A stretch of DNA of 64,000 bases from Rhizobium sp. WYJ-E13 (GTDB lineage Bacteria; Pseudomonadota; Alphaproteobacteria; Rhizobiales; Rhizobiaceae), in contig NZ_CP076853.1 in the NCBI RefSeq assembly GCF_018987265.1, forward strand, positions 2,976,001-3,040,000, read 5' to 3'. The stretch's first letter is position 1. Each line of letters opens with the position of its first letter. Below, piece after piece: positions 42,655 to 58,177 of this stretch. The notes below the pieces were generated by a model that had not been told where the DNA came from, ran no database searches, and worked only from the letters and a program-made list of their open reading frames with translations. The position numbers and the translations under genes are program-made.

Positions 42655-43131
42655 ATGAGCGACGATGACGGCCACGAGCATATCGACTGGCGCGAACATG
42701 GCGTGAAGGTCATCCCCGGCAATGCGCTCGATCCGAATACCGCCCAGACGCCGGGCATGAATCGCGCGACCGCCATCAACAATGCACGTGCGGGTGCGGA
42801 AAAAATCTGGGCGGGCACGGTAACGATTCATGCTAACGCCAAGACTGGCGCCCATCACCACGGCGATCTCGAAAGCATCATCAATGTGGTAAAGGGCAAG
42901 GCCCGCATGCGCTGGGGCGAAAAACTCGAATTCACCGCCGAAGCCGGCCCCGGCGATTTTATCTACGTGCCGCCCTTCGTGCCGCATCAGGAGATCAATG
43001 CCAACCGTGACGAGACGCTGGAATGCGTGGTCGTGCGTTCAGGCCAGGAACCCGTCGTCGTCAACCTCGATATCGAGCCGGTCGAAAAGCCCGAAGACGT
43101 GCCGTGGATCGACCCGATTCACCGCCACTAG
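42655..43131 (+). CDS. Cupin-domain protein
   Basis: A 158-aa single-domain cupin starting MSDDDGHEHIDWREHGVKV behind GGAGGAG. Motif 1 is GAHHHGDLESIINVVKGKARMRWG (starting near residue 68) with the His-x-His and Glu metal ligands. Motif 2 is GDFIYVPPFVPHQEIN, with the last His. This is a metal-binding pattern, so a small-molecule isomerase, dioxygenase or sensor role is possible. It is divergent from lacI. An IS630 element inserted exactly in its TAG stop codon, and the stop is preserved. Confidence 0.85.
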   Translation: MSDDDGHEHIDWREHGVKVIPGNALDPNTAQTPGMNRATAINNARAGAEKIWAGTVTIHANAKTGAHHHGDLESIINVVKGKARMRWGEKLEFTAEAGPGDFIYVPPFVPHQEINANRDETLECVVVRSGQEPVVVNLDIEPVEKPEDVPWIDPIHRH

Positions 43132-43147
43132 TACCACACCACAGAGA

Positions 43148-44263
43148 TTATGACTCTTTGACGGGGTAAGCTTTGCGGAGCTTTTGGCGAGCATTTTCGG
43201 TTGTGAACATCCATTGGATCTTTGCGCCATGGGTGTTGCGTTGCTGCTCCCAGGCTGCGACTTCGGCGATGATGGTTTCTTTGTTGTCGATACGACGGTC
43301 GAGGCATTGGCTACGCAGGACACCGATCTCGATCTCGACCATGTTGAGCCAACTGGCGTGCTTGGGCGTGTGGTGGAACTCCAGTCGCTTCAGCACCCTT
43401 CGAGCCTCCGGGGCGGGAAATGCGTCGTAAAGCGCGCCGGCGGAATGGGTGGAGAGGTTGTCCATCACCACGCGGATGATCGGGGCGTCGGGATAATCGA
43501 CGTCGACCAGTTCGCGCATGCACTCGGCGAAGTCTTGGTTGGTTCGCCGATCAGTGACCTTGACCCTGCGCCAGGGCCGGTGGGCGTCCATGAAGACAAA
43601 CAAATTGACCGTGCCGTTTCGGCGATACTCGCAGTCGTGGCGTTCAAGCTGGCCAGGCTTGGCCGCAATGGGTTCGCGCACTTCGCCGATGAGTTGGGTC
43701 GGGCTCTCGTCGAAGCAGACCACGGGCTTTTGTGGATCAGGCGTTTCTGCGTAGAGGTCGAGAACATCCTCCATGCGCGCGACGTATTCCCCATCGATCT
43801 TTGGGATGCACCACATGTCTTTGCGCCAAGGCTTGAGATGGTTCTCAGCCAGCCGGCGACGCACGGTCTCCGAGGACAACTCGTCATGGTCGGTGAGCCG
43901 GATCATCTCATCGGCCAGAAGCTCCAGGGTCCAGCGGGCTCGCCCGGGCGGCGGCTTTGAGCAAGCGGTCGCTACCAACAGCGCCTCCTCCTTGCTCGAT
44001 AGCTTGCGCTCAACACCCGGACGCGGTTCTTCGCTGAGTGCCCCTTCCAGATTGGCTTCCACAAACCGGCGCTTGGTCCGGTAAATCGTCGATCCGCTGA
44101 CGTTCAAGGTTGCCGCGATCACCTCGTCGCTGAAGCCTTCGTCCGCTGCGACCAGGATCTGGGCGCGCTTGATCTTGCGAGACCTGTGGCACCCCCCGCT
44201 CAACAAAGCGGCCAGTTGGTCACGTTCCGATTGGCTAAGCTCTATGTGAAACTTTATATTCAT
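43148..44263 (-). CDS. IS630 family transposase
   Basis: A 371-aa DDE transposase starting MNIKFHIELSQSERDQLAAL behind GGAGG. The N-terminal HTH pair includes ADEGFSDEVIAATLNVSGSTIYR. The catalytic acids appear in VVCFDESPTQ, IRVVMDNLSTHS and KHASWLNMVEIEIG, giving D, D, E in proper order. Full length with no frameshift, so the element may still be active. The reading frame extends upstream to 44383, but the ribosome site fixes the start at 44263. Confidence 0.93.
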   Translation of the reverse strand: MNIKFHIELSQSERDQLAALLSGGCHRSRKIKRAQILVAADEGFSDEVIAATLNVSGSTIYRTKRRFVEANLEGALSEEPRPGVERKLSSKEEALLVATACSKPPPGRARWTLELLADEMIRLTDHDELSSETVRRRLAENHLKPWRKDMWCIPKIDGEYVARMEDVLDLYAETPDPQKPVVCFDESPTQLIGEVREPIAAKPGQLERHDCEYRRNGTVNLFVFMDAHRPWRRVKVTDRRTNQDFAECMRELVDVDYPDAPIIRVVMDNLSTHSAGALYDAFPAPEARRVLKRLEFHHTPKHASWLNMVEIEIGVLRSQCLDRRIDNKETIIAEVAAWEQQRNTHGAKIQWMFTTENARQKLRKAYPVKES

Positions 44264-44291
44264 CGACACCTCCTTCAGCGTGGAGACGCAG

Positions 44292-44576
44292 ATGAATCCC
44301 AAAATGAGTCCCCCACTTGACCCGCAAGCCGCAACGGCAAGACGGCGCCTTACGCAGATCCAAGGCCAGTACCTGGCCTTCATCTACGCCTACAGCCGCA
44401 TCTTCAAACAGCCTCCGGCCGAAGCCGACATGCGGCGCCACTTCGGTGTTACGGCTCCGTCTGTTCACCAGATGGTGCTGACCCTCGAGAAGGCGGGCTT
44501 TATATCCCGCGTGCCAGGCGCCGCACGCAGCATCCAACTTCTCATCCCACCAGAAGCCCTGCCCATTCTACGATAA
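44292..44576 (+). CDS. Small winged-helix protein carried by the IS630 element
   Basis: A 94-aa protein divergent from the transposase and inside the inverted repeats. The ATG at 44292 has GGAG 6 nt upstream. The fold prediction by eye is LexA-like: GQYLAFIYAYSRIFKQPPAE, ADMRRHFGVTAPSVHQMVLT (recognition helix) and a short wing RVPGAARSIQLLI. I recall similar small ORFs beside other IS630 transposases. It may regulate transposition; this is inference. Confidence 0.72.
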   Translation: MNPKMSPPLDPQAATARRRLTQIQGQYLAFIYAYSRIFKQPPAEADMRRHFGVTAPSVHQMVLTLEKAGFISRVPGAARSIQLLIPPEALPILR

Positions 44577-44619
44577 GACAAACCGTCATAATCTCTGTGG
44601 CGGGCTACTAGGTGCAAAT

Positions 44620-46233
44620 TTAGGCGGCGGCGAGGATCATCGCCGCGCCCTTCTCCGCCACCATCATCGTCGGCGCATTGATATTGCCGGCCGTGATGTT
44701 CGGGAAGATCGAGGCATCGACGATCCGCAGACCATTGATGCCGTGCACCTTCAGCGAAGCATCGACGACGGATGTCGTTGCATCCGGCCCCATCGCAGCC
44801 GATCCGCAGAGGTGATAGATCGAACCGGAATTGCCCCGGAAATAGGTGAGCAATTCCTCGTCAGTCTGGGCCTCTGCCGAAGGCGGCATCTCCATTTCGG
44901 TAATGGCCCGCAGCGCCGGCGCTTCCATGATCCGGCGCACCAACCGGCTGCCCTGGATCACCTCTTCCTCGTCATGGACGGTGCCGAGATAGTTCGGCCG
45001 GATCTGCGGTGCGTCCGTCAGCTCGGGAGAGATGATGTTGATAGAGCCTCGGCTCGTCGGCCGGCAGGAATTGAAAGCAAGTAGAAAGCCCGAATAGGGT
45101 TCCGGCTTCAGCCCCGCCTTCGGATCGGTCGGGATGCGGTATGAGAGCGGGTTGAAATAAAGCTGGATATTCGGCCGCTCTTCCTCCGGACTGCCGCGCA
45201 GGAAGGCGCCGGCCTGATTGACGCTGAGCGCCAGCGGCCCCCGTCGCGTCAGAATATAACGCAAGGCCTGCCGCGCCTGCCCGAAGATCGTGCCGAGTTC
45301 GTCATTCAGCGTCGGCACGTTAGAGCGGTAATAGAAGCTGACGCAGAGGTGGTCCTGCAGATTCTTGCCGACCGCCGGCAGATGCCGGATCAGCGGAATG
45401 CCGAGGGATTGCAGAAGGGCACCATCGCCGATACCAGAAAGCTGCAGCAGCTTGGGCGTATCCACGGCACCGGCCGAGAGAATAACCTCCTGGCGCGCCG
45501 AATAACTGGTGATGCCACCCGGACCGATTACCTCGACACCAGTCGCGCGGGCTTCAGCATCGACGATCACCCGGCGCACCCGGCTATCGCGCAGGATCGC
45601 GAGATTGGGTCGCCCTAGCGCCGGCCGCAGATAGGCGAGCGATGAGGAGGAGCGCACGCCGTTCCGCGTGTTGATATCGTAAATGCCGGCGCCTTCGATG
45701 CTCTCGCCGTTGAAATCCGCATTCAGCGGCAGCTGCAGTTCGGCACAGGCTTCCAGGAAACAGTCGGTAATCGCATGCGACTGGCCGCGCATCGGCGTCA
45801 CATGAATTGGGCCGCCACCGCCATGATATTTGCTCTCGCCGTCCGCATGCGTCTCCAGCTTGCGGAAGAAGGGCAGCACATCCTCATAGCCCCAACCGAG
45901 ATTACCGGCAGCCTTCCAGTCGTCGAAATCGTCGGCGGCACCGCGCACGAAGATCATCGCATTGATGGAGCCGGAACCGCCCTGCACCTTACCGCGCGGC
46001 GCATAAATGCGCCGGCCGTTGAGCGCCGCTTCCGGCTCGCTCCAATACATCCAGTTGACCTTCGGATCGTAATAGGAGCGCGCATAGCCGACCGGAATGC
46101 GGAACCACGGGGAGCTGTCATTGCCGCCGGCTTCGATCAGCAGCACATTGTGCCTGCCGCTCTCGCTAAGGCGCGCGGCGAGAATGCAGCCGGCCGAGCC
46201 GGCGCCGACGATGATGTAATCATATGTCGTCAT
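44620..46233 (-). CDS. GMC family oxidoreductase (choline/alcohol dehydrogenase-like)
   Basis: A 537-aa FAD enzyme with N-terminal DYIIVGAGSAGCILAARLSE, APRGKVQGGSGSINAMIFVRG (GMC signature 1, near residue 80), SAGAVDTPKLLQLSG (signature 2, near 255), and C-terminal YHLCGSAAMGPD and ITAGNINAPTMMVAEKGA holding the catalytic His and Asn. It oxidises an alcohol to an aldehyde in the cytoplasm, passing electrons to oxygen or quinone. It is the last gene of the minus-strand catabolic run, 8 bp after the enolase-superfamily gene. The aldehyde dehydrogenase upstream would take its product. Confidence 0.92.
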   Translation of the reverse strand: MTTYDYIIVGAGSAGCILAARLSESGRHNVLLIEAGGNDSSPWFRIPVGYARSYYDPKVNWMYWSEPEAALNGRRIYAPRGKVQGGSGSINAMIFVRGAADDFDDWKAAGNLGWGYEDVLPFFRKLETHADGESKYHGGGGPIHVTPMRGQSHAITDCFLEACAELQLPLNADFNGESIEGAGIYDINTRNGVRSSSSLAYLRPALGRPNLAILRDSRVRRVIVDAEARATGVEVIGPGGITSYSARQEVILSAGAVDTPKLLQLSGIGDGALLQSLGIPLIRHLPAVGKNLQDHLCVSFYYRSNVPTLNDELGTIFGQARQALRYILTRRGPLALSVNQAGAFLRGSPEEERPNIQLYFNPLSYRIPTDPKAGLKPEPYSGFLLAFNSCRPTSRGSINIISPELTDAPQIRPNYLGTVHDEEEVIQGSRLVRRIMEAPALRAITEMEMPPSAEAQTDEELLTYFRGNSGSIYHLCGSAAMGPDATTSVVDASLKVHGINGLRIVDASIFPNITAGNINAPTMMVAEKGAAMILAAA

Positions 46234-46241
46234 CTTCGTTC

Positions 46242-47459
46242 TCAGCCGCGGGCCGGCGCGAATGCCTTGACGTCGGCGGGCTTGTCATCCATTTGCAGAT
46301 GCAGTCGCTGCCCTTCGTAGGGCGAGTGTTTTGCGACGACATCGAGATTGAGCTCCACGCCCAGTCCCGGTTCATCTGACGGGATCAGGTAGCCGTCCTC
46401 GAAGTGCAGCGGTATCTTCAGGATCTCAGCATAGAAGCCCGAGAAATCGACAATCGCTTCATGGATCAGGAAATTCGGCGAGGAAGCAGCAAGCTGAATG
46501 CTCGCCGCAGCGCCGATCGGGCCGTTGTAGAGATGCGGCGCGATCTGCGCATAATGCGCCTCCGCCATACCGGCGATCTTCTTGGATTCGAGAATGCCGC
46601 CGGCACGCGCCACGTTCATCTGCAGGATCGAGGCCGCTCCCGTTTCCAGCACGCGTTGGAACTCGTATTTCGTCGTCAGCCGTTCACCTGTTGAAATGGG
46701 GATCGAGGTCTTGCGGGCGACTTCCGCCATCGCCTCCTCCTGGCCGGGAGGCACAGGCTCCTCGAACCACAGCGGATCGTATTTCTCCAGCCGCCGCGCT
46801 AGCCGGATCGCCGAAGACGGCACCATCTGGCCATGCGCGCCGAACAGCAGATCGGCACTGTTGCCGATAGCCGCGCGGATTTTGGCGCAAAACTCTTCGC
46901 AGCGGTCCATCACCCCGAGCGACACCTGATGGCCGGAATAGGCCGTATAGGGGCCTGCCGGATCGAACTTGACGGCGGTAAAGCCCATCTCGACCATCTT
47001 CACCGCGCATTCGGCAGCAAGGTCCGGATCGTTATAGTCGTATTCGCCGGCGGCATTCTTCGGATAGAGATAGGTATAGCCGCGCAGCTTCTCATGCACG
47101 CGCCCGCCGATCAGTTTATGGACCGGCTTGCCGGCAGCCTTGCCGATAATGTCCCAGCAGGCGATCTCCAGGCCGGAGACGATACCCATCATCGTCGGGT
47201 CCGGGCGCTGGGTAAAACCGCTCGAATAGGCAAGCCGCCAGAAGCGCTCGATATCATGCGGATCATGGCCGAGCAGATAGCGCTGGAAGACGTCTTCGAT
47301 CAGCGGCACGAGCGCCTGCGGATGGAAGGCGGTCGAATAGATCTCCCCGACGCCCTCGATGCCGTCAGCGGTCGTCAGTCGTACGAAGATCCAGTACATG
47401 CCGCCGATATGCGGCGGCGGGACGGCGATGACATGGGTGGAAAGCGATGCGATCTGCAT
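46242..47459 (-). CDS. Mandelate racemase/muconate lactonizing enzyme family (acid-sugar dehydratase-like)
   Basis: A 405-aa enolase-superfamily protein. The ATG at 47459 follows GAGGATTACGGCC; an upstream TTG is rejected. The capping domain is followed by a barrel with TAVKFDPAGPYTAYSG, LWFEEPVPPGQEEAM, ISTGERLTTKYEF, ILQMNVARAGGIL and QIAPHLYNGPIG. The strand that usually gives the first metal ligand Asp (D-x-H/N) reads FGAHGQ, without Asp. Dehydration of a sugar acid is the best guess for such neighbours, but the altered site means activity is uncertain. It lies 11 bp after the aldehyde dehydrogenase gene. Confidence 0.85.
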   Translation of the reverse strand: MQIASLSTHVIAVPPPHIGGMYWIFVRLTTADGIEGVGEIYSTAFHPQALVPLIEDVFQRYLLGHDPHDIERFWRLAYSSGFTQRPDPTMMGIVSGLEIACWDIIGKAAGKPVHKLIGGRVHEKLRGYTYLYPKNAAGEYDYNDPDLAAECAVKMVEMGFTAVKFDPAGPYTAYSGHQVSLGVMDRCEEFCAKIRAAIGNSADLLFGAHGQMVPSSAIRLARRLEKYDPLWFEEPVPPGQEEAMAEVARKTSIPISTGERLTTKYEFQRVLETGAASILQMNVARAGGILESKKIAGMAEAHYAQIAPHLYNGPIGAAASIQLAASSPNFLIHEAIVDFSGFYAEILKIPLHFEDGYLIPSDEPGLGVELNLDVVAKHSPYEGQRLHLQMDDKPADVKAFAPARG

Positions 47460-47470
47460 GGCCGTAATCC

Positions 47471-48889
47471 TCAATGCTTGAGTATGACGAGGCGCGTCTG
47501 GGTGAATTCGAGCATGCCGTGCTTGCCATCGTCACCGCCGAGACCCGAGCGTTTCCAGCCGGCGTGATAGCCCTGATAGGGATCGGCCGGGAAACGGTTG
47601 ACGTAGAATTCGCCGGCCTCGATCGCGTCGGAAAAGCGCATGATCGTGCGATGATTGTTGGTGAAGAGCACCGAGCTCAGACCGAACTGGTGGTCATTGG
47701 CAAGCGACAGCGCTTCCTCGGCCGTGTCGTAGGCAACAACAGGCAGCACAGGCCCGAAGACCTCTTCGGCGATGATCTCCATGTCCTGACGGCAATTGGA
47801 TAGCAGCGTTGGTGGATAGAAGAAGCCCGGACCTTCAGGCAGGATGCCGCCGGCCTCGACACGCGCCCCATCCTCTACCGCCTTCAAAACAGCCTTGTGC
47901 ACATTCGTCTGTGCAGCCTTCGTGGCGAGCGGCCCGACGCGTGATGCATCAACCGAGCGGTCCCCGAAGGCACGTGCGGCAAAGCCGGCCTTCAGCTTGG
48001 CAAGCAACGCGTCATGGATGGAGCGATGCACATAGACACGCTCCGGCGCGGTGCAGAGCTGTCCGCAATGATTGGTCTTGGCGGCAACGAGCTGTGCGGC
48101 AACGGCATCGAGGTCCGCATCCGGCTCGATGATGACGGGCGTCTTGCCGCCGAGTTCCAGCGACGGCTTGGCAATGTTCGCCTTGCAATAGTCAAGTACC
48201 ACGTGGCCAGCCTGCAGGCTACCGGTCAGGGTAATCATCCCGACCTTGGGATGGGTGCAGAGCGTCGCCGCGACTTCATGCGACATTGTGAGGATATTGA
48301 TGAGCCCGGCAGGCAGTCCTGCCTCAGCCACGGCTTCGGCAATCTCGAAAGCCGATGTCGGTGTCGAATTGCTCGGACGCACGACGACTGCATTGCCGGC
48401 GATGAGCGCCGGCGCGATCTTGCGCACCAGCGTGTACACCGGGAAATTGAAGGGTATCAGGCAGGCGACGACGCCGATCGCCTCGCGCTTCAGAAGCAGC
48501 GTCTCATTGGCATTGTCGCTCGGGATGATTTCGCCCTCGATGCGGCGCGCCCATTCGGCGTGATAGCGCATCAGTTCGGCTCCATAGATGGCCTCGCCCG
48601 TCGCGTCGGCAAGGCTCTTGCCGGATTCCAGCGCTAGCGCTGCACCGATCTTCTCCGCCCGCCGCTCAATGACGACCGCGAGCTTGCGCAGTGCGTCGCC
48701 ACGCGCGATGGTCGGCAGCGCCCGCCATTCCTTCTGCGCCCTCGCCGCTGCCTCGACGGCCTCGACTGCCTCTCCGACACTCGCGGACGGCACCCTGGCG
48801 AATTGGGCTTCCGTTGCCGGATTGAGCACCGGCACCAGCGTGCCGGAAGACCGGAATTCTCCGGCGATAAAATTGCGATAATCCGTCAT
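47471..48889 (-). CDS. Aldehyde dehydrogenase (NAD(P)-dependent)
   Basis: A 472-aa ALDH superfamily enzyme starting MTDYRNFIAGEFRSSGTL behind GAGGATG. The catalytic base is in LELGGKTPVIIEPDADLD (near residue 240), and the nucleophile Cys in NHCGQLCTAPERVYVH (near 275). The C-terminal signature is EVFGPVLPVVAYDTAEEAL. The two Cys near GQLC and a His-Cys before it are not typical of SSADH, so glycolaldehyde/lactaldehyde-type or other semialdehyde substrates are possible. Part of the minus-strand catabolic operon with the dehydratase and GMC enzyme. Confidence 0.92.
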   Translation of the reverse strand: MTDYRNFIAGEFRSSGTLVPVLNPATEAQFARVPSASVGEAVEAVEAAARAQKEWRALPTIARGDALRKLAVVIERRAEKIGAALALESGKSLADATGEAIYGAELMRYHAEWARRIEGEIIPSDNANETLLLKREAIGVVACLIPFNFPVYTLVRKIAPALIAGNAVVVRPSNSTPTSAFEIAEAVAEAGLPAGLINILTMSHEVAATLCTHPKVGMITLTGSLQAGHVVLDYCKANIAKPSLELGGKTPVIIEPDADLDAVAAQLVAAKTNHCGQLCTAPERVYVHRSIHDALLAKLKAGFAARAFGDRSVDASRVGPLATKAAQTNVHKAVLKAVEDGARVEAGGILPEGPGFFYPPTLLSNCRQDMEIIAEEVFGPVLPVVAYDTAEEALSLANDHQFGLSSVLFTNNHRTIMRFSDAIEAGEFYVNRFPADPYQGYHAGWKRSGLGGDDGKHGMLEFTQTRLVILKH

Positions 48890-48924
48890 GACGACATCCT
48901 CAGGACAATAGCTAACTCCACGCA

Positions 48925-48940
48925 TGCCGGCTCAAGCCGG
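48925..48940 (-). other. Intercistronic hairpin between ATPase and ALDH genes
   Basis: GCCGGC (48925-48930) pairs with GCCGGC (48935-48940) around TCAA, in the 96-bp gap that is the largest in this run. It could end or process the transporter part of the message. Confidence 0.45.
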
Positions 48941-48985
48941 CCACGCGTTGAAACGGAACAGAGTGCCGACGCCCGAAGGTGGCGG

Positions 48986-50575
48986 CTAGAACGCGCTGCG
49001 GCCCGGCGCCGCATCGAGAAGCGTTTTCGTATAGGGATGCGTCGGCGCCTGCAGTATTTGGGCCGCACTGCCGCGCTCGACGATTTCACCCTTCTGCATC
49101 ACCACGATCTCATCGCTGATCTGGGCGGCGACACGCAGGTCATGGGTGATGAAGACGATGGCGAGCTGAAGCTTCTCCTGCAGCTCGCGAAGCAATTTCA
49201 GAACCTGCGCCTGTACGGAGACGTCGAGCGCCGAAACGCTCTCATCCGCGATCAACACATCCGGCCGCATCGCAAGCGCCCGGGCAATACCGATGCGCTG
49301 GCGCTGACCGCCTGAGAAAGCAGACGGCTTGCGCCAATAGGCGCTCTTCTGCAGCCCAACGAGATCAAGCAGCTCTTCCGCACGGCGGCGCGCTTCGCCA
49401 GCCTCGACACCGGCAAGCATGGCGGAACGGGCGATCACCGGCCCGACGCGGCGGCGCGGATTGAGCGAGCCGAACGGATCCTGGAAGATCATCTGGATCG
49501 ACCGGCGCCGCACCCGCAGCGGCGCTGACGAAAGACCGAGAAGATCGGCACCCGCGACTTCCACACGGCCGCTCTTCGGCTCGATCAGGCGGATCATCGC
49601 CTTGGCAAGCGTTGACTTGCCGCAACCGGATTCGCCGACGATGGAGACCACACGGCCCGGCAACAGGCTGAGCTCCACGTGCTTCAAGACCTGAACGCTG
49701 CCGTAGGAATGCTGCAGATCGTGCACTGCAAGCACTGGCTCCTCCCCCGTCTGCGCCGCCGGACGGCCATGCGGCGTCAGGCTCGGGACGGCAGCGATAA
49801 GCTCCTTGGTATAGGGATGATTTGGAGCCGTCAGCACCTGCTTCGCATCACCGATCTCGACGATCTCGCCATGGCGCATGACCGCCACGCGGTTGGCAAT
49901 ATCGGCGACCACGCCGAAGTCATGGGTGATGAAGACGATGCCGTGGCCATGCACGTCGCGCAACTCGCGCACCAGCTTCAGCACCTGTGCCTGGGTCGTC
50001 ACGTCGAGCGCCGTCGTCGGCTCATCGGCAATCAGCACGCGCGGGTTCATGGCAAGCGCCATGGCGATGACAACGCGCTGGCACTGGCCACCGGAAAGCT
50101 CATGCGGATAGGCCTGCAGGATACGATCAGGGTTCGGCAGATGCATCGACTCGATCAATGCGCGGGCACGCTTCTTCCGCTCGGTCGCATCGAAATCCGA
50201 ATGCAGTTCGAAGACTTCCTCGACCTGCGCGGAAACCGTCATCGCCGGATTGAGCGAGGCGATCGGCTCCTGGAAGATCATCGCGATATCGCTGCCTCTG
50301 ATGGCGCGGAAAGCCCGCTCGGAGAGGCCGACGAGATTGGTATCGCCGAGCACCACCTTGCCGTCAACAATCTTCAGCCCCTCGGGCACCGCACCCATCA
50401 GCGCACCCGACAGCACCGACTTGCCCGAACCGGACTCGCCGACGATGCAGAGGATTTCACTCGGCCTGAGGTCAAAGCTTGCGGCTTTCACCGCGAAGGG
50501 CCGGTCGGCGCCCTTCGGCAGGGCGACGCTCAGATTTTCGACCCGGAGGATCGGCTGTGTTTCGTTGCTGCTCAT
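48986..50575 (-). CDS. Fused double ABC ATPase (DppD-DppF type)
   Basis: A 529-aa ATPase with two domains. Domain 1 has GESGSGKSV (near residue 43), LSGGQCQR (with Cys in the signature in place of the usual Arg) and [11 protein letters not shown]. Domain 2 has GESGCGKST (near 315), FSGGQRQR and LIADESVSALD. Peptide-type extensions PNHPYTKELI and THPYTKTLLDA follow each. The start MSSNETQPILRVENLSV overlaps the permease stop by 4 bp. It energises the third Dpp-type transporter of the window. Confidence 0.94.
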   Translation of the reverse strand: MSSNETQPILRVENLSVALPKGADRPFAVKAASFDLRPSEILCIVGESGSGKSVLSGALMGAVPEGLKIVDGKVVLGDTNLVGLSERAFRAIRGSDIAMIFQEPIASLNPAMTVSAQVEEVFELHSDFDATERKKRARALIESMHLPNPDRILQAYPHELSGGQCQRVVIAMALAMNPRVLIADEPTTALDVTTQAQVLKLVRELRDVHGHGIVFITHDFGVVADIANRVAVMRHGEIVEIGDAKQVLTAPNHPYTKELIAAVPSLTPHGRPAAQTGEEPVLAVHDLQHSYGSVQVLKHVELSLLPGRVVSIVGESGCGKSTLAKAMIRLIEPKSGRVEVAGADLLGLSSAPLRVRRRSIQMIFQDPFGSLNPRRRVGPVIARSAMLAGVEAGEARRRAEELLDLVGLQKSAYWRKPSAFSGGQRQRIGIARALAMRPDVLIADESVSALDVSVQAQVLKLLRELQEKLQLAIVFITHDLRVAAQISDEIVVMQKGEIVERGSAAQILQAPTHPYTKTLLDAAPGRSAF

Positions 50576-51417
50576 GCGCGTCTCCCCTGCGCTTCCGAGA
50601 CTTCCCGCAATCCGTCCGCCAGCAGGCTCAAGCCCAGCATCAGCGACGAGATCGCAAGGCATGGAAAGATAACGAGATGGGGGAAGGCGATCGCCATGGC
50701 GCGGCCTTCATTCACCATCGTGCCCCAATCAGGCGTCGGTGGCGGCAGGCCGAGGCCGAGGAAGCCGAGCGTGCCGATGGTGATCGCCGTGTAGCCGAGG
50801 CGCAGGCAGAAATCGACTGCGAGCGGCCCGCTGGCATTGGGCAGGATATCGAAGAGCATGATGCGCCAAGTGCTTTCGCCCTGCGTTACTGCTGCCGCCA
50901 CATAATCGCGGCTGGCGACGTCGATGGTGATCCCGCGCACGATACGGAAGATCGCCGGCGCACTGCCGAAAGTCACAGCAAGCACGATGTTGAAAGGCGA
51001 AGAGCCGACCACGACGATGATGACGATATAGAGCACCAGCACCGGGAAGGAGAGCACCACATTGGCGATGTAGGAGAGCACCGCATCGCCCCAGCCGCGC
51101 CAGTAGCCGGCGACAAGACCGAGTACCACGCCGACCACATAGGCGGTCACCGTCGCGAGCGTCGAGAAGATCACGACGGTGCGCGCGCCATAGATCAGAC
51201 GCGAGAGGATATCGCGACCGAGCTTGTCGGTGCCGAGCCAGAACACGCCACCCGTTGGAGCCGCTGTACCCGGCTTTACAAGCGGCAGCAGCGTGCGGAT
51301 CGGATCGAAAGGCGCGAGCAGCGGCGCGAAGATCGCCACCAGCAGCCAGCCGATCGTCAGGAAACCGCCGATCAGGATGATTGGATTGGAGACGTAGGAT
51401 CTGACAACTTTCACCAT
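50572..51417 (-). CDS. ABC transporter permease, DppC type
   Basis: A 281-aa inner-membrane protein starting MVKVVRSYVSNPIILIGG. Hallmarks are FWLGTDKLGRDILSRLIYGARTV (near residue 62), coupling loop AAVTQGESTWRIMLFDILPNA and C-terminal LLADGLREVSEAQGRR. It is 7 bp downstream of the DppB-type gene and overlaps the ATPase gene by 4 bp. The frame extends upstream to 51447, but that overlaps the previous gene without a better ribosome site. Confidence 0.93.
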   Translation of the reverse strand: MVKVVRSYVSNPIILIGGFLTIGWLLVAIFAPLLAPFDPIRTLLPLVKPGTAAPTGGVFWLGTDKLGRDILSRLIYGARTVVIFSTLATVTAYVVGVVLGLVAGYWRGWGDAVLSYIANVVLSFPVLVLYIVIIVVVGSSPFNIVLAVTFGSAPAIFRIVRGITIDVASRDYVAAAVTQGESTWRIMLFDILPNASGPLAVDFCLRLGYTAITIGTLGFLGLGLPPPTPDWGTMVNEGRAMAIAFPHLVIFPCLAISSLMLGLSLLADGLREVSEAQGRRA

Positions 51418-51424
51418 GGCGCCC

Positions 51425-52384
51425 TCACTTCCGACCATTGGCTGCATCGAGCAGCGAGACGCGGGGGTTCAGCCAACCATAGGCGAGATCGGAAAGGATC
51501 TGGGTGGCGACGACGACGACAACGCTTACCATCGCGCAGGCTTCGACGAGGCGGATATCGCTGTTGAGTGCGGCGTCATAGAGAAGCGTGCCAAAGCCCT
51601 TATAGGCATAGAAGACCTCCACGACGATGACGCCGGACAGCAGCCACGGAAATTGCAGCATGATGACGGTGACGGGCGTAATCAGCGCATTGCGCAGCGC
51701 GTGCCGCCAGACGATGCGCGCGGTGCTCGCCCCCTTCAGCCGCGCCGTGCGGACATAATGCGTGCCCATGACTTCGATCATCGAGGCGCGGGTGACGCGC
51801 GCCAGATAGCCGGTCGAATAGAAGCCGAGCACCAGAACCGGCAGAATGATCTGCTGCAACGAGAAGCCGCTAAGCATGGTGCTGGCACCGGGCAACCAAT
51901 GCAGCCAGAATACGAAGACGGCAGAAAAGAATACTGCGGACGCGAAATCGGGGATCGACGTCGTGGCGATCGCAACGAAGGAAATGACGCGATCGAGCAA
52001 CGAACCCGGGCGCATACCGGCAATGACGCCTGCAAACAAACCGACCGGAACGATGATGAGCAGCGCACCACCGGCAAGAATGCCGGAGGCCGCAAGCCGA
52101 TCGGGGATCAATTGGGCAACCGGCGCACGATAATAGGTGGACATGCCCCAGTCGCCGGTCACGAAGGACCAGAGCCATCGGCCGTACCGGATGATGAAAG
52201 GATCGTCGTAACCGTTGGCGGTCAGCCACTGGGCGCGCTGTGCCGGCGTCGAGAACTGGCCGAGGACTTTGACGGCGACATCGCCGACATTGACCTCCAG
52301 TGCCAGGTAAACGAGCAGCGACACGGTGAACATCACCGCGAGCGCGCTTGCCAGTTTACGGAGAATGAAAGGGAAAACGGCCAC
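51425..52384 (-). CDS. ABC transporter permease, DppB type
   Basis: A 319-aa permease. The preferred start is GTG at 52384 (MAVFPFILRKLASALAVMF), behind AGAGGTGG; the frame is open further up to 52438 only via TTG. Features are TANGYDDPFIIRYGRWLWSFV in the periplasmic loop, RTARLKGASTARIVWRHALRNALI as coupling loop, and VFYAYKGFGTLLYDAAL. The C-terminal LAYGWLNPRVSLLDAANGRK is longer than in many DppB. Confidence 0.9.
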   Translation of the reverse strand: MAVFPFILRKLASALAVMFTVSLLVYLALEVNVGDVAVKVLGQFSTPAQRAQWLTANGYDDPFIIRYGRWLWSFVTGDWGMSTYYRAPVAQLIPDRLAASGILAGGALLIIVPVGLFAGVIAGMRPGSLLDRVISFVAIATTSIPDFASAVFFSAVFVFWLHWLPGASTMLSGFSLQQIILPVLVLGFYSTGYLARVTRASMIEVMGTHYVRTARLKGASTARIVWRHALRNALITPVTVIMLQFPWLLSGVIVVEVFYAYKGFGTLLYDAALNSDIRLVEACAMVSVVVVVATQILSDLAYGWLNPRVSLLDAANGRK

Positions 52385-52404
52385 GAACCACCTCTTTACC
52401 GGGT

Positions 52405-52427
52405 CGGGGCCGCGCCTGGCGGCCCCG
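52405..52427 (-). other. Intercistronic GC hairpin after binding-protein gene
   Basis: CGGGGCCGC (52405-52413) pairs perfectly with GCGGCCCCG (52419-52427) around a 5-nt loop, 8 bp after the binding-protein stop. It is in the same position as the hairpin at 25464 in the first system. Confidence 0.6.
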
Positions 52428-52434
52428 CCGAAGA

Positions 52435-54060
52435 TCAAGTCTTGGCGAGCCAGACGCCATCCATGCGGAAATAATCCGCCGGATGGAGCACGAAACCGCG
52501 GACGGTGGTGGCGGCGGCGCTGAAGCGGTTCGGCCAGTAGGGCTGAACGATGACGGCGGAATCCTGCAGGATCTGCTGGACATCCTTCATGGCCTCAGGG
52601 CGCTTGGCCGGATCGACGACGGCCATCGCCTTATCGAGCGCGGCGTCGAATTCCTTGCTTGCGAAATGGCTCTCGTTCCAGGCGCCGCCGGAGCGGTAGG
52701 CGAGATCGAGCGTCATGGCGCCGAGCGGACGGTGTGCCCAGTAGGTGAGACCGAAAGGAACCTTGTCCCAGATCGGCCAGTATTGAGAGGCCGGCAGCAC
52801 ATTGAGCTTCAGCCGGATGCCGGCTTCGGCCAGATTCTGCTGCAGCACCTGCGCGGTATCCTGTTCCCAGGTACCCTGTGTATTGCCGAGCGTCAGCTCA
52901 AGGTCCAAACCGTCCTTGTAGCCGGCTTCTGCGAGCAGGGCCTTGGCCTTCTCGACATCGCGGGGCACAGCCGGCAGCGCGTAGTAATCGGGCTGAACCG
53001 GGGAGACGTGGAAGTTGGCGCCGACTTCACCTTCACCGCGATAGGCGACGTCGAGCATCTGCTTGTTGTCGGCGGCAAGCTGCACCGCCTTGCGGACGCG
53101 AATATCGTCGAACGGCTTCTGGTCGGACTGCATGCGCATGACGAGCGTATGTGCAGCCTTGCCGGTCAGGATCTGGATGTTCGGCAGCGACTTCATGAGA
53201 TCGTATTCGGCGATCGTCGCGCGGTAGATGATATCGATCTGACCGCTCGAAAGTGCCGCCAGATGCGTGGTGATATCGGTACCGAGGTCGATATACTGGA
53301 TGCCATCGAGATGAACAGGCGTACCCCAGTAATCGGCGCGCTTGGAGAAGACTGCCTGGCGGCCGACTTCATAAGCGTCCAGCTTGAAGGGGCCGGTACC
53401 GATTGGGTTGGCCGGCCAGTTGGCGCCACCCTTGACGAAGTCACGATGCAGCATCGGGCAGGTATAGGAATAGAGCTGTTCAGGCAGCGAGGAAACCGCG
53501 CGCGACAGCGTGATGCGAACCGCATGGTCGCCGGTCTTCTCGACCTTCTCGACTGCCGAGAAGGCTGTCTTGTTGGAAGACTGCGAGTCAGGCGCGATCC
53601 AGCGCTGTATGTTGAAGATCACGTCTTCGGGCGTAAATGCATCGCCGTTCGACCACTTGGCGCGCTCGTCGAGCTCGAAATCCCAGGTCTTGAGATCGGC
53701 AGACGGCGTCCAGCTCTTGGCGAGATAGGGATGGGTGACGTTGTCGGCATCGACGAAGGTCAGGAATTCGAGGCTGTTGCGATAGAGGTTCGAAGCCTCG
53801 ATCCAGCTCGTCATCATCGGATCGGTCAGTTCCTGGATCTGGCAGCCGAAACGCAGCGTGCCACCGTCCGTGGGCGTTTCCTCAGCGAGTGCCGGCTTGC
53901 TTTCGCCAAGGAAGGCACTGGCGGAAGCCGCCGTCACACCGAGCCAGGCGACTGCGCGCAGGAAGCCGCGGCGGTCGATCTTGCCGGCGCGGACCCGTTC
54001 GCACAGTTCCGGCACCGAGGGATGCAGCGGTTTGCCGCTATTGGTCTTCAATTCAGTCAT
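52435..54060 (-). CDS. Family-5 ABC transporter substrate-binding protein with Tat-type signal
   Basis: A 541-aa periplasmic receptor starting MTELKTNSGKPLHPSVPELC behind GGAGGAGG. A 30-residue leader precedes a twin-arginine signal (KIDRRGFLRAVAWLGVTAAS), cleaved near ALAEE, so it is probably exported folded. SBP_bac_5 core: LDERAKWSNGDAFTPEDVIFNI, ANPIGTGPFKLDAYEVGRQ and IRVRKAVQLAADNKQMLDV. It begins the transporter part of the minus-strand catabolic run, 37 bp after lysR. Ligand unknown; the catabolic genes nearby suggest an alcohol- or acid-bearing sugar-like compound. Confidence 0.93.
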   Translation of the reverse strand: MTELKTNSGKPLHPSVPELCERVRAGKIDRRGFLRAVAWLGVTAASASAFLGESKPALAEETPTDGGTLRFGCQIQELTDPMMTSWIEASNLYRNSLEFLTFVDADNVTHPYLAKSWTPSADLKTWDFELDERAKWSNGDAFTPEDVIFNIQRWIAPDSQSSNKTAFSAVEKVEKTGDHAVRITLSRAVSSLPEQLYSYTCPMLHRDFVKGGANWPANPIGTGPFKLDAYEVGRQAVFSKRADYWGTPVHLDGIQYIDLGTDITTHLAALSSGQIDIIYRATIAEYDLMKSLPNIQILTGKAAHTLVMRMQSDQKPFDDIRVRKAVQLAADNKQMLDVAYRGEGEVGANFHVSPVQPDYYALPAVPRDVEKAKALLAEAGYKDGLDLELTLGNTQGTWEQDTAQVLQQNLAEAGIRLKLNVLPASQYWPIWDKVPFGLTYWAHRPLGAMTLDLAYRSGGAWNESHFASKEFDAALDKAMAVVDPAKRPEAMKDVQQILQDSAVIVQPYWPNRFSAAATTVRGFVLHPADYFRMDGVWLAKT

Positions 54061-54097
54061 GATCTGCCTCCTCCTTGAATGGGCAGTATGGTCGCTA

Positions 54098-55093
54098 TCA
54101 GGCACCCTCTGTGCCAGACACGATGCGCAGGGCGGGCTTTTCACTGTCGTTCATCATACGATTGCTGAAGCGGCTGATGATCCAGGATCGAAAGCCTGCA
54201 ATCAGTGGATCCACCAGCCCTTCCGCATCGGTCTTCAGGTAATAGCCGAAGCCTTCGTAATAATGTGCGGTGACCGGGGCAACCAGCCGGCCGCTTTCTA
54301 TTTCCTCCCGAAACAGTGCCGGATCTGCCAGCACCAAACCTTGCCCCGACAAGGCGTACTGAACCCCGAGGCTGGCGCTGTCGAATGTCACACCACGCGC
54401 CACGGAAACCCCGCCAAGGCCGTTCTGAACGAGGAAGCGCTGCCAGGTGAGGTAGGGCTCCATGTCGACGATCTTGATGTGGATGATTTCGTTTGCCGCA
54501 ATGAAAGCCGCGATATCCGAAACCCCTCCCCTGACCAGATCGGGATGGCAAAGGATCGTCGGCCGCTCCTCCCAGAGCAGGTCGGTGATCCATTCATCGA
54601 CGGCCGGTCGCGTGTAGACGACCGCCACATCGAATTCGCTGTCCGGCACCCCGTAAGGTGTCGAAATCTCCAGCAGCACATCCGGGAAGCTGCGCCGGAA
54701 ATCGGTCAATAGCGGCACGGTGAGCTTCATCGCAAAGCTCGGCGGCAGATTGATGCGCAGCTTGCGCTGGCGCTGTTCGTCCGGCGCGCAGACCTCCTTC
54801 AGCGCCTGCTCGATACGGTCGAAACCCTTGCCGATACCGGCGGCGAGCGAGCGTCCGTCATCCGTCAGCGTCGTGGCCTTGTGCCCGCGTTCAAAAAGCT
54901 TGCGCCCGATGCTCTCTTCCAGACCGATGACATGCCGCGAAAGCGCGCTTTGCGAAATGTTGAGCGCGGCGGCCGCCGCCGTGAAGCTGCCGTGATGCGC
55001 CACAGCCTCGAAGGCCCGTAGTGCATTCAGCGGCAACCGGCGGCGATCGACCGCAGGCTCCTTCTTCGTCTGAGGAGAGCGATCCTCCGTCAT
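54098..55093 (-). CDS. LysR family transcriptional regulator (GcvA-like)
   Basis: A 331-aa LysR regulator with a 17-residue hydrophilic leader, then LPLNALRAFEAVAHHGSFTA and SQSALSRHVIGLEE, as in the GcvA/AmpR group. The effector domain includes LRINLPPSFAMKLTVPLL and VARGVTFDSASLGVQYALSGQGLVLAD. Its start overlaps the ALDH stop by one base (TAATG), so it is embedded in the operon. The perfect ATC-N9-GAT box at 58161-58177 in front of the operon is its likely site. Confidence 0.92.
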   Translation of the reverse strand: MTEDRSPQTKKEPAVDRRRLPLNALRAFEAVAHHGSFTAAAAALNISQSALSRHVIGLEESIGRKLFERGHKATTLTDDGRSLAAGIGKGFDRIEQALKEVCAPDEQRQRKLRINLPPSFAMKLTVPLLTDFRRSFPDVLLEISTPYGVPDSEFDVAVVYTRPAVDEWITDLLWEERPTILCHPDLVRGGVSDIAAFIAANEIIHIKIVDMEPYLTWQRFLVQNGLGGVSVARGVTFDSASLGVQYALSGQGLVLADPALFREEIESGRLVAPVTAHYYEGFGYYLKTDAEGLVDPLIAGFRSWIISRFSNRMMNDSEKPALRIVSGTEGA

Positions 55094-56538
55094 TATCCCG
55101 CAAGCCCGCCGAACAGGACATACTTGCTCTCGAGATATTCATCGAGCCCTTCGCTGGCACCTTCGCGGCCGAGACCGGATTGCTTGACGCCGCCGAAGGG
55201 GGCGACTTCCGTCGAGATCACACCCTCATTGATGCCCACCATGCCCGCTTCAAGCGCCTCGGCCACACGCCAGGCGCGGCCAAGATTCTGTGTGAAGAAA
55301 TAGGCCGAAAGACCGGTTTCCGTATCATTGGCAAGCGCGATCGCTTCTTCTTCGCCCTTGAAGCGGAAAAGGCCGGCAACCGGACCGAAGGTCTCTTCGG
55401 ACGCGAGCGCCATATCGGTCGTCATGCCGGTCAACACCGTCGGCTCGTAGAACAGGCCGCCACGTTCGTGCGGCTTTCCGCCGGTCAGCACCTTGGCGCC
55501 CTTTTCGACGGCATCGGCCACATGCCGCTCGACCTTCGTCAGCGCCGGCGCATTGATGAGCGGTCCCTGCGCCGCGCCGTCCTCGATGCCGGGCGCCACC
55601 TTCATGGCCGCAACCGCCTTGGCAAGCGCCTCCGCATAACGGTCATAGACGCCGTCCTCGACGAGGATGCGGTTGGCGCAGACGCAGGTCTGCCCGGTAT
55701 TGCGAAACTTGGAGGCGATCGTACCGCGCACGGCCTGATCGATATCGGCATCGTCGAAAACGATGAGCGGTGCATTACCGCCAAGCTCGAGGCTGATGCG
55801 CTTCACCGTATCCGCACTCTGGCGCATGAGCAGCTTGCCGGTTGCCGTCGATCCCGTAAATGAGAGCTTACGAACAACGGGGCTCTTCATCCAGACGCCG
55901 ACGACATCGGCCGGCGACTTCGTCGTCACCACGCTGACGACACCGGCGGGAACGCCGGCCTGTTCGCCAAGGCGGGCAAGCGCCAGTGCCGAAAGCGGCG
56001 TGTCTTCAGCCGGTTTGATGATGATGGTGCAGCCTGCAGCAAGTGCCGGTCCGACCTTGCGGGTAATCATCGCCAGCGGGAAGTTCCATGGCGTGACCGC
56101 TGCGACAACACCGACCGGCTCCTTCATGACGACGATGCGGGCATCGGCTTTGTGGGACGGCACGACGCCGCCGTGGGCACGGCGGCCCTCTTCGGCAAAC
56201 CAGGTCAGGAAACCCGCCGCATAAGCAACCTCGCCGCGCGCCTCCGCAAGGGGCTTGCCCTGCTCGGCCGTCAGAAGCCGCGCAAGGTCTTCCTGATTGG
56301 CAAGCATTAGCTCCGCCCAGCGACGCAGCACTGCAGAGCGCTCGGCGGCTATCGTCTTGCGCCAGGTCTTGAAGGCCTTCGCAGCGGCATCGACCGCCTG
56401 CTGGGCCTCAGTCGCGCCGCAATCCGGCACGGTCGCAAGCTCGCTGCCGTCGGCTGGGTTGAGCACGGCGAAGCGCCTGCTGTCAGCAGCACTACCCCAG
56501 CCTCCGCCGATCAGCGCATTGTCTTCGATGAGTTTCAT
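55093..56538 (-). CDS. Succinate-semialdehyde dehydrogenase family (GabD-like)
   Basis: A 481-aa NAD(P)-dependent aldehyde dehydrogenase. Sequence landmarks of the GabD branch are TPWNFPLAMITRKVGPALAAGCT, FTGSTATGKLLM, SLELGGNAPLIVFDDADID (catalytic Glu) and FRNTGQTCVCANR (nucleophile Cys with adjacent Cys). The tail VAPFGGVKQSGLGREGASEGLDEYLE is diagnostic. In this setting it may oxidise another semialdehyde made by the pathway. It ends overlapping lysR and begins 1 bp after the Fae-family gene stop. Confidence 0.93.
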   Translation of the reverse strand: MKLIEDNALIGGGWGSAADSRRFAVLNPADGSELATVPDCGATEAQQAVDAAAKAFKTWRKTIAAERSAVLRRWAELMLANQEDLARLLTAEQGKPLAEARGEVAYAAGFLTWFAEEGRRAHGGVVPSHKADARIVVMKEPVGVVAAVTPWNFPLAMITRKVGPALAAGCTIIIKPAEDTPLSALALARLGEQAGVPAGVVSVVTTKSPADVVGVWMKSPVVRKLSFTGSTATGKLLMRQSADTVKRISLELGGNAPLIVFDDADIDQAVRGTIASKFRNTGQTCVCANRILVEDGVYDRYAEALAKAVAAMKVAPGIEDGAAQGPLINAPALTKVERHVADAVEKGAKVLTGGKPHERGGLFYEPTVLTGMTTDMALASEETFGPVAGLFRFKGEEEAIALANDTETGLSAYFFTQNLGRAWRVAEALEAGMVGINEGVISTEVAPFGGVKQSGLGREGASEGLDEYLESKYVLFGGLAG

Positions 56539-56539
56539 G

Positions 56540-57049
56540 TCAGGCGACCTTAGGCGTGAAAAATGGATTGCCGACCGTTGCTACGCCTTCGGCAAGCTCG
56601 GCACGCGACGGCCAACCTTTCATCAGTGCACGCTTGGCTGCAAGATGCGTCGCAGCCTTGTTGTTATGATATACTTCTTCGGCATCGTTTGCCGATGGAT
56701 TGACCCAGACCGCGGCGATCGCCACCCAGTCGTCCTCGGCCTCGGCCGGCAGCGAAGCATCGAGCAGTGCGGCGGTGATGCCGGCAGCGACACCGGCCTG
56801 CGCAGGCCCCCAGGTCATCAGCTCATGCGACGAACCGGATTCCATCACTGCCTTTGCGATGAAGAGCGTCACGGGTTTCGCCGGCAGGTTCGGTTTCAAC
56901 ACCGCCTGGAACGGCAGGTGGCCGGGGCCGGGGCTTGCGGCCGCACCGGCGAGCGCTCCAGAGATCGGGCCATTCTTCGGGCCGAGATAGAGATTGATAT
57001 GGGCAGCGTTCGGGCCGGAACCCTCGAAGCCTTCACCGATGTAAAGCAT
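56540..57049 (-). CDS. Formaldehyde-activating enzyme (Fae) family protein
   Basis: A 169-aa protein that aligns by eye with Fae over its length: YIGEGFEGSGPNAAHINLYLG (the proton-donor His of Fae is in AHINL), LKPNLPAKPVTLFIAKAVM, TWGPAQAGVAAGITAAL and the helix KAATHLAAKRAL. Known Fae condenses formaldehyde with tetrahydromethanopterin. No other H4MPT-pathway gene is in the window, so a different aldehyde or cofactor is possible. The ATG at 57049 is preceded by GGAG. Second gene of the run, between an aldo/keto reductase and a semialdehyde dehydrogenase. Confidence 0.85.
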   Translation of the reverse strand: MLYIGEGFEGSGPNAAHINLYLGPKNGPISGALAGAAASPGPGHLPFQAVLKPNLPAKPVTLFIAKAVMESGSSHELMTWGPAQAGVAAGITAALLDASLPAEAEDDWVAIAAVWVNPSANDAEEVYHNNKAATHLAAKRALMKGWPSRAELAEGVATVGNPFFTPKVA

Positions 57050-57082
57050 TGAAATCTCCAATAGCGATGCGAGTCGAGGCCA

Positions 57083-58078
57083 TTATGCCTTCGAAAGAGC
57101 GCGGGGGCGACGGATCGGATTATAGTCGTTGATCATGTCGCGCGGGCGGTAGGGCTCTTCAAGGAAGGTGCGTTCTTCGGCCGTGAGCTCGATCGCAGCA
57201 GCTTCGATCGCGGCAACGACATGCTCGGGGCTCTCCGTGCCGACGATCGGAACCGTGCTGTTGCCGGAACCGATGACCCAGGCCTGGGCGATCTGGCTCG
57301 CCGTCTTGCCGCGCTTGGCAGCGACTTCGTTGACGCGCTTGGCAATCTCCTGGTCGATCTCGTCGCCGAACCAGTCGAGATAGAGGTCATGGGCGATACG
57401 CGGCGCAGAACCGCCACCGGCAAGATAACCGCGGGCGAGCGGCGAGAAGGTGGTAACCGCGATGCCCTCGTCCCTGCAGTAAGGCATCATTTCGCGCTCC
57501 TCCTCGCGGTAGAGCAGCGAATACTGGCACTGCATGTTCACGAACCGCGTCCAGCCGTTCTTGTCGGCGACATGATTCATCTTGGCGAACTGCCAGGAAT
57601 ACATGGTGGAGGCGCCGATATAACGCGCCTTGCCTGACTTCACGATATCGTGGAGCGCGCTCATCGTCTCTTCAACAGGCGTTTCCGGGTCAAAGGCGTG
57701 GATGACGTAGAGATCGACATAGTCAGTCCCCATCTGCTTCAGCGACTTGTCGATCGACGCCATCAGATGCTTGCGCGACAGGCCTTTGTCGTTCGGATCG
57801 TCGCTCATCGGGTAGAAGGCCTTGCTGGCGAGCACCAGCCTTTCGCGGTCCGTCAGCGACAAAAGTGTGCGCGCAACGACCTGCTCGTTGACACCGGTCG
57901 AATACCAGTCCGCCATGTCGAAGAAGTTGATGCCGACATCGAGCGCCTTCTTGAGGATCGGCACCGACTTCTCCTCATCGAGCACCCAACCCTTCCACTT
58001 GGATGTGCCGATACCCATGGTACCAAGGCAAAGCGACGAAACCTTCAGGCCGGTCTGGCCAAAGCGCACATATTCCAC
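57083..58078 (-). CDS. Aldo/keto reductase
   Basis: A 331-aa NADPH-dependent AKR. The catalytic tetrad is visible: Asp and Tyr in NFFDMADWYSTGVNE (near residue 50), Lys in VLASKAFYPM (near 85) and His in DLYVIHAFDPE (near 125). The cofactor end has VPIVGTESPEHVVAAIEA. Family members of this length reduce aldehydes and ketones or oxidise secondary alcohols. It is the first gene after the predicted promoter and LysR box, and it lies 33 bp before the Fae-family gene. Confidence 0.93.
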   Translation of the reverse strand: MEYVRFGQTGLKVSSLCLGTMGIGTSKWKGWVLDEEKSVPILKKALDVGINFFDMADWYSTGVNEQVVARTLLSLTDRERLVLASKAFYPMSDDPNDKGLSRKHLMASIDKSLKQMGTDYVDLYVIHAFDPETPVEETMSALHDIVKSGKARYIGASTMYSWQFAKMNHVADKNGWTRFVNMQCQYSLLYREEEREMMPYCRDEGIAVTTFSPLARGYLAGGGSAPRIAHDLYLDWFGDEIDQEIAKRVNEVAAKRGKTASQIAQAWVIGSGNSTVPIVGTESPEHVVAAIEAAAIELTAEERTFLEEPYRPRDMINDYNPIRRPRALSKA

Positions 58079-58111: not shown

Positions 58112-58140
58112 ACTATGGCGTGGCGACACTATTGTGACAA
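58112..58140 (-). promoter_or_regulatory. Predicted sigma-70 promoter of the AKR-Fae-ALDH operon
   Basis: On the minus strand: -35 TTGTCA (58140-58135), 17-nt spacer, -10 CATAGT (58117-58112). The transcription start would be near 58105, giving a leader of about 27 nt to the AKR start codon. Confidence 0.55.
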
Positions 58141-58160: not shown

Positions 58161-58177
58161 TATCTCAAAATGAGATA
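58161..58177. promoter_or_regulatory. LysR-type operator, perfect ATC-N9-GAT dyad
   Basis: TATCTCAAAATGAGATA is a perfect 7-bp inverted repeat with a 3-bp centre and fits the LysR box ATC-N9-GAT (T-N11-A). Its centre is about 64 bp upstream of the predicted start near 58105, the classic recognition-site position. The regulator is probably the operon's own LysR (54098-55093). Confidence 0.65.

Follow-up and report, generated by a model that had tools for sequence, protein, structure and literature searches.

A putative LysR-controlled operon of two oxidative modules in Rhizobium, with a divergent Fae-like protein that does not seem to need tetrahydromethanopterin

A run of eleven open reading frames (ORFs), all on the minus strand, occupies positions 44620–58078 of the 64,000-nucleotide stretch of Rhizobium sp. 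WYJ-E13 analysed here, which is referred to as the window. With a probability of about one half, we read this run as a LysR-controlled operon of two oxidative modules in which a protein related to formaldehyde-activating enzyme (Fae) would aid aldehyde chemistry without tetrahydromethanopterin (H4MPT). Module M1 comprises the Fae-like protein, an aldo-keto reductase (AKR) and an aldehyde dehydrogenase (ALDH) of the succinate-semialdehyde-dehydrogenase (SSADH) type, with its own importer; module M2 comprises an AldA-type ALDH, a protein of the mandelate racemase (MR) family and a GMC oxidoreductase. The gene set is real, recurrent and uncharacterised, and the enzyme function at its centre is possibly new. 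No paper was recognised as treating this gene set in searches of the open-licence PMC literature.

The ORF list runs from the AKR (first) to the GMC protein (last), and the Pfam and NCBIfam scans assigned, in this order, AKR, Fae, SSADH-type ALDH, LysR, SBP_bac_5, two permeases, a two-domain ATPase, AldA-type ALDH, mandelate racemase/muconate lactonizing (MR/MLE) and GMC families. Intergenic distances range, if internal starts are assumed, from short overlaps up to 96 bp. The original prediction, made from the sequence of the window, was thus right in its gene list, order, strand and range of gaps.

The Fae-like protein (56540–57061, minus strand) matches PF08714 with an E value of 1.2e-39, while it barely passes TIGR03126 (122.9 against a cut-off of 118.05). 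An AlphaFold2 model built from 43 sequences has a mean pLDDT of 90.6, and the sole Foldseek matches of this model below E 0.001 are five Methylobacterium extorquens Fae chains (1y60, E 2.2e-17). The protein resembles M. extorquens Fae (PDB 1y5y/1y60) in its predicted fold (TM 0.85) and in the His of the AHI motif, which we take to be the catalytic His of Fae and which is kept in 32 of 32 Fae-like members; it differs in being only ~30% identical. The column-by-column comparison of the two groups covered 28 Fae-like rows and 21 canonical ones, with one row left out. Alignment columns fixed and common to both groups numbered 23, the AHI His among them, and another 23 were fixed to differing residues, to which two further C-terminal Fae-like columns, unaligned in the canonical rows, have to be added. 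A tree of 88 rows, into which 30 of the 120 database matches listed were entered, keeps the Fae-like protein apart from canonical Fae: 62 Fae-like rows are split from 21 canonical and five more distant Fae-family rows with support 96/95, with the caveat that the tool warns of long branches meeting and that one of the long rows is that of Streptomyces.

Searching with the Fae-like query gave 586 matches at E ≤ 0.001, among which canonical Fae may be included; the 120 listed are all at least 65% identical to the protein of the window, and those among them named by their source are called formaldehyde-activating enzyme or H4MPT hydro-lyase. Genes for Fae (fae1) have served as markers of H4MPT-linked formaldehyde oxidation (PMC3763247). 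Methenyl-H4MPT cyclohydrolase (MCH) was used here as the single marker of the H4MPT pathway. No MCH match was obtained in the own Rhizobium genome, and MCH was not found in 23 of the 24 Fae-like genomes tested (12/12 of the genus and 11/12 from other classes). The exception, G394, has MCH and also a canonical Fae ~2 kb from it, and all five congeners with canonical Fae likewise have MCH ~2 kb from fae. H4MPT-linked trapping of C1 units is therefore unlikely, and the H4MPT pathway seems dispensable for the Fae-like protein. C1-aldehyde trapping, which the original prediction had considered possible, was rejected in its canonical form on these grounds, and the names carried by the clade are likely misleading. 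Also unlike canonical Fae, the Fae-like gene adjoins an AKR gene and mostly an SSADH-type gene.

This neighbourhood recurs well beyond the strain. Public genome contigs were scanned for close relatives of the Fae-like protein and the content of each run was determined by tblastn of the proteins of the window. The scan yielded 15 loci: nine of Rhizobium type (three Rhizobium and six Rhizobiales isolates), two from Devosia, two from Pannonibacter and one each from Aureimonas and Ensifer. Parts of the same run are present in 15/15 as far as the flank reaches; most loci stop inside the MR gene, so that the GMC gene was seen in L010, L012 and L016 only, and L008 stops at the contig end. In Rhizobium, and in Devosia over the sequence covered, the two modules form a single run. 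M2 lies divergent from the AKR gene, with a LysR gene of its own in between, in Aureimonas and in Pannonibacter L016; no M2 was seen within the flank of Ensifer L014 and Pannonibacter L015. Locus L010, from Rhizobium mesosinicum HU56, is without the SSADH gene between the Fae-like and LysR genes (L010 10516–10634).

More distant relatives mostly retain the partners of the Fae-like gene and change the transporter. Caballeronia grimmiae has the order Fae-AKR-SSADH-MFS, with GMC-MR-MFS-aldA ~12 kb from fae, and both modules lie within ~10–13 kb in two Burkholderia plasmid records and in genome G468. In family f107, which belongs to the same order as G468, the Fae-like gene was found in 7 of 61 genomes. 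Four of these have Fae-AKR-SSADH followed by ProXWV-type genes and facing a MocR-type regulator, with M2 adjoining; the regulator of the one such locus scanned scored 461 bits to EhuR, for which the cut-off is 480. The other three have Fae-AKR-MFS and no SSADH nearby. In Burkholderia, one Caballeronia and the four f107 genomes, then, neighbouring M1 and M2 use transporters other than that of the Rhizobium run. In Streptomyces clavuligerus a betaine-type ABC transporter precedes fae, which is followed by a GarR-type dehydrogenase and SSADH. The 34 Fae-like stretches were tallied, one Caballeronia locus being counted twice (L069 is a short copy of L092). The partner of the Fae-like gene is an AKR in 33 of them and a GarR-type dehydrogenase in one; an SSADH-type ALDH is near in 30/34 and an MR gene lies in the stretch in 19/34. 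The transporter is of Dpp type in 17, MFS in 11 and ProX type in five, and was not found in one.

The set is rare as well as recurrent. Six of 398 genomes of the phylum, the own genome included, gave a Fae-like match of at least 47% identity. The MR protein had 39 matches at E ≤ 1e-120 in the same 398 genomes; those of at least 74% identity numbered four, every one among the six Fae-like genomes. Within the genus, the MR protein was found in 12/12 Fae-like genomes against 3/136 others, the genomes being related and not independent events. A Caulobacteraceae relative used as query at E ≤ 1e-40 matched one of 337 genomes of the class, the own genome, and 4 of 200 genomes in the order of G468 matched at E ≤ 1e-35. 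The co-occurrence within the run is more than chance, and conservation outside the strain, for which a gene-neighbourhood search had been proposed as a check, is borne out both by the 15 public loci and, further off, by other lineages.

The two dehydrogenases and the AKR indicate what kind of chemistry may be performed. The AKR (57083–58078, minus strand; PF00248) has its nearest solved chain in DepB (8hwn), and its D-Y-K-H tetrad is kept in 34/34 distinct members. The SSADH-type ALDH (55093–56538, minus strand) scores over its subfamily cut-off (TIGR01780, 700.8 against 646.35), and seven of the eight listed solved matches are named SSADH. Its Cys is kept in 31/31 members and its Glu is kept as well; Arg occupies two further columns in 31/31 and 30/31 members, and we assume these Arg residues to be the binders of the carboxylate of succinate semialdehyde. 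The retention of both columns, together with the mostly SSADH-named solved matches, argues for a small carboxylated aldehyde as substrate. In these features the protein is like the GabD-type SSADH (PDB 3jz4, 4v6h), from which it differs in scoring under the PRK11241 equivalog cut-off (680.6 against 828) and in the lack of a GABA transaminase in the run of the window. The second ALDH (47471–48925, minus strand) marginally exceeds the AldA model NF007497 (502.3 against 500), and its nearest solved chains are named aldehyde dehydrogenase A or lactaldehyde dehydrogenase.

Neither of the remaining two M2 enzymes reaches the cut-off of any NCBI model listed. The MR/MLE protein (46242–47474, minus strand; PF13378/PF02746) falls below the galactonate dehydratase equivalog (NF010624, 254.7 against 311). 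When compared with the own galactonate dehydratases of the genome, it keeps both Glu ligands, a Lys and two His; in 34/34 members, Gly stands at the position of the Asp of the Asp-Glu-Glu set, presumably the metal ligands of galactonate dehydratases. The reaction of the protein is therefore not to be assumed. The original prediction of an enolase-superfamily dehydratase held as to the family, the protein being of the MR group, while the dehydratase part became uncertain; a plain sugar-acid dehydratase label was not adopted in view of the change from Asp to Gly. The best solved relative, 4e4u, aligns over 405 residues with 722.9 bits. It was observed that the whole MR/MLE subgroup reads LFG[TA]HGQ, with Gly in place of Asp, and that all five solved members (4e4u, 4e5t, 3t4w, 3rcy and 4j3z) read LFGTHGQ; their names give no function, so that the likeness is to proteins without a named activity, as distinct from the galactonate dehydratases. 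The GMC protein (44620–46233, minus strand; PF00732/PF05199) is choline-dehydrogenase-like below the cut-offs, with 543.2 against 605 for NF002550 and 458.4 against 732.1 for the choline dehydrogenase equivalog BetA.

The stretch in front of the AKR gene is conserved more strongly than its surroundings. Mean identity among the ten Rhizobium-type loci, window included, is 93% over the 101 bases that precede the AKR start; it is 47% and 48% in the two stretches beyond them, and 80% at AKR third codon positions. Within the 101 bases lies the palindrome ATCTCATTTTGAGAT (ATC-N9-GAT; 58162–58176, minus strand), a candidate LysR operator 98 nt upstream of the AKR start. It is found at −98 (−97 in L010) in 10/10 Rhizobium-type loci and, with one change, in 2/2 Ensifer loci. 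ATC-N9-GAT palindromes are the motif class of LysR-type regulators. No exact match was obtained in the two Devosia and the Aureimonas loci, though the LysR gene is present, and the forms there look degenerate by eye; nor was the palindrome found in the two Pannonibacter loci, which are without this LysR gene. A candidate −35/−10 promoter, TTGTCA-17-CATAGT (9/12), was located at 58112–58140 on the minus strand in a stretch conserved in the Rhizobium-type loci. The promoter scan of the whole region gave 6 sites against 3.3 in shuffles and the terminator scan 12 against 10.8, a slight excess that is not relied on alone. The centre of the palindrome would lie ~64 bases before the start expected from the promoter-like site at 58140–58112, the spacing being estimated; such a spacing fits LysR activators. 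The conserved palindrome and this spacing support a LysR-controlled promoter ahead of the first gene and strengthen, as far as sequence can do so, the earlier suggestion of control by the LysR-type regulator encoded within the run (54098–55093, minus strand; PF00126 and PF03466).

The reading that uses all parts leads from the importer through M2 to M1. The importer consists of a family 5 solute-binding protein (SBP; 52435–54144, PF00496), the Dpp/Opp-type permeases B (51425–52438) and C (50572–51447), both PF00528, and a fused DppD-DppF type ATPase with two ABC domains (48986–50662; two PF00005 stretches), all on the minus strand. This ABC importer would take up a small, probably carboxylated or zwitterionic compound. 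In M2, acting in the order GMC protein, AldA-type ALDH and MR enzyme, a primary alcohol may be turned into an acid, which might then be rearranged or dehydrated. M1 would convert a small carboxylated aldehyde to a dicarboxylate entering central metabolism. By analogy with canonical Fae, the Fae-like protein could speed an addition or elimination at the aldehyde (a hydrate, hemiacetal or hemiaminal), the partner not being H4MPT. The condensation sped by canonical Fae also occurs spontaneously (PMC8879981). The step order, the Fae-like chemistry, the substrate and the binding of LysR are parts of the explanation that we infer. The wider expectation of the original prediction, alcohol-to-aldehyde-to-acid enzymes within an import-and-catabolism run, finds support in these results, as does conservation of the run outside the strain. 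In favour of the two-module operon, M1 and M2 are found side by side in several lineages although their order varies and transporters of three types are used. A bolder proposal, which we hold tentatively and place a little short of even odds, is that the Fae-like clade represents a new enzyme family departed from H4MPT, which would act on a carboxylated aldehyde of several carbons by speeding an addition or elimination that also proceeds spontaneously (or would move formaldehyde to a different carrier) and would feed its AKR and SSADH partners in a hitherto undescribed catabolic pathway of alpha- and betaproteobacteria and Streptomyces. Being compact and conserved, the gene set lends itself to a search for this function and its substrate by means of deletions and binding assays.

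Several observations weigh against the two-module operon. In 4/34 stretches no SSADH gene lies near Fae-AKR, and 13/34 are without any M2 gene; at least two of these owe this to lack of flank, since L069 is a truncated version of L092, where all three M2 genes are present, and L008 stops at the contig end. In the phylum sample, 35 of the 39 MR matches are only 51–63% identical and none of these lies in a Fae-like genome, and no MR match at the cut-off was obtained in G291 and G311, two M1-bearing genomes outside the class. M1 and M2 lie on different contigs in G394 and G466, and ~0.9 Mb apart on one plasmid in Ensifer adhaerens CTYH.Ch1. Ensifer canadensis, Shinella, Pararhizobium and Caballeronia Lep1P3 carry a close M2 with no Fae-like gene in the vicinity, while the GMC-MR pairs of Leisingera and Sinorhizobium are more distant relatives; some of the M2 or GMC-MR copies lacking a nearby Fae-like gene adjoin GarR-type or SSADH genes, and the Shinella M2 has SSADH and aminotransferase genes after it. 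Since M1 and M2 are apart or alone in several genomes, they could be separate pathways. To these points have to be added the Gly at the metal-ligand position of the MR protein and that, to our knowledge, no activity has been assigned to any protein of these modules. In the extreme, two unrelated catabolic modules would stand side by side with no common metabolite, each being seen without the other nearby and having, in some lineages, a transporter or regulator to itself; the co-location in several lineages with varying order and transporters, and the restriction of the MR protein within the genus mostly to Fae-like genomes, make this unlikely, if still a serious contender.

The other alternatives concern the substrate, for which the methylated or polyol-type plant compound of the original prediction is one candidate class. 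Retention of the Fae fold, the His and the core motif would suit a pathway that frees formaldehyde, for instance from N- or O-methyl groups or through retro-aldol cleavage of 4-hydroxy-2-oxobutanoate; the Fae-like protein would trap the formaldehyde on a different carrier, perhaps tetrahydrofolate or a thiol, and the AKR would oxidise the adduct. The Fae-like protein with an oxidoreductase is the most constant pair, and the literature offers precedents: an engineered route makes 4-hydroxy-2-oxobutanoate from pyruvate and formaldehyde (PMC8879981), other dehydratases convert threonate to 2-oxo-4-hydroxybutyrate (PMC10079672), and the Gfa and AdhC steps with glutathione pair an adduct-forming enzyme with an oxidoreductase (PMC4776306). 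The latter likeness is one of analogy only, as the protein families differ from those of the Fae-like protein and AKR and a link to a thiol is hypothetical. With no aldolase, demethylase or formaldehyde dehydrogenase family detected among the eleven proteins by the family scans, 23 columns fixed to residues other than those of canonical Fae and a carrier that is a candidate only, formaldehyde transfer is given a minor share of belief. The ProXWV-type genes and the MocR-type regulator beside M1 in four f107 genomes, and the glycine-betaine-type transporter before fae in S. clavuligerus, hint that a nitrogenous compound, betaine-like or amino, is also conceivable as the substrate, in which case M1 might convert an amino- or hydroxy-acid via a semialdehyde. 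The choline-dehydrogenase-like GMC protein would agree with this, as would the aminotransferase next to M2 in Shinella. The GMC protein is nevertheless below the choline dehydrogenase cut-offs, the run of the window is without an aminotransferase, deaminase or demethylase family in the family scans, and in other relatives the carrier is an MFS protein that most resembles aromatic-acid symporters, yet below cut-off (177.4 against 418.55), so a nitrogenous solute appears rather unlikely. Most improbable is a C4 polyol, for which the GMC protein and AldA-type ALDH would turn a tetritol into a tetronate, the MR enzyme would yield 2-oxo-4-hydroxybutyrate by dehydration, and AKR and SSADH would lead on to oxaloacetate: the order of activities suits an AldA-type ALDH, a galactonate-dehydratase-like MR family and an SSADH acting on a carboxylated C4 aldehyde, whereas the Gly at the Asp position of the MR enzyme, as well as the transporters and MocR regulator of the relatives, point elsewhere.

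Some gene starts of the run probably differ from those of the ORF list. The Fae-like protein would begin near 57049, since its closest database relative has 169 residues, and the MR protein near 47459, where 4e4u begins. The true start of the SBP is probably near 54060, judging from 548-residue matches in homologues, and inspection places those of the ATPase and of the second ALDH near 50575 and 48889, respectively.

Downstream of the run, an insertion sequence (43128–44611), which we take to be IS630-like, begins 8 bp past the GMC stop codon and consists of 33-nt inverted repeats (85% complementary) flanking a DDE_3 transposase gene. On the upstream side, a histidine kinase and a LuxR-type response regulator (58694–60917, plus strand) face the run. 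This two-component pair is also found upstream of the run in 9/9 other Rhizobium-type loci, the gap being ~4 kb in L003 and L005–L008 compared with ~0.5–0.6 kb otherwise; it was not counted as part of the system, as it is unmatched in the Devosia, Ensifer, Aureimonas and Pannonibacter loci. At ~3.8 kb from the run (61869–62321, minus strand) stands a gene whose product belongs to the glutathione-dependent formaldehyde-activating (GFA, PF04828) family, a neighbour by position only. In Caballeronia, further fae-annotated genes fall outside the Fae-like clade (L069 54–587 and L093 30673–31206), the former adjoining toxic-anion-resistance and TerD genes. Finally, chemotaxis receptor genes were seen near M1 in both Pannonibacter loci (L015 17635–19335, L016 14369–16069) and in G643 (L104 134–1747), which looks as if the substrate were an attractant too.

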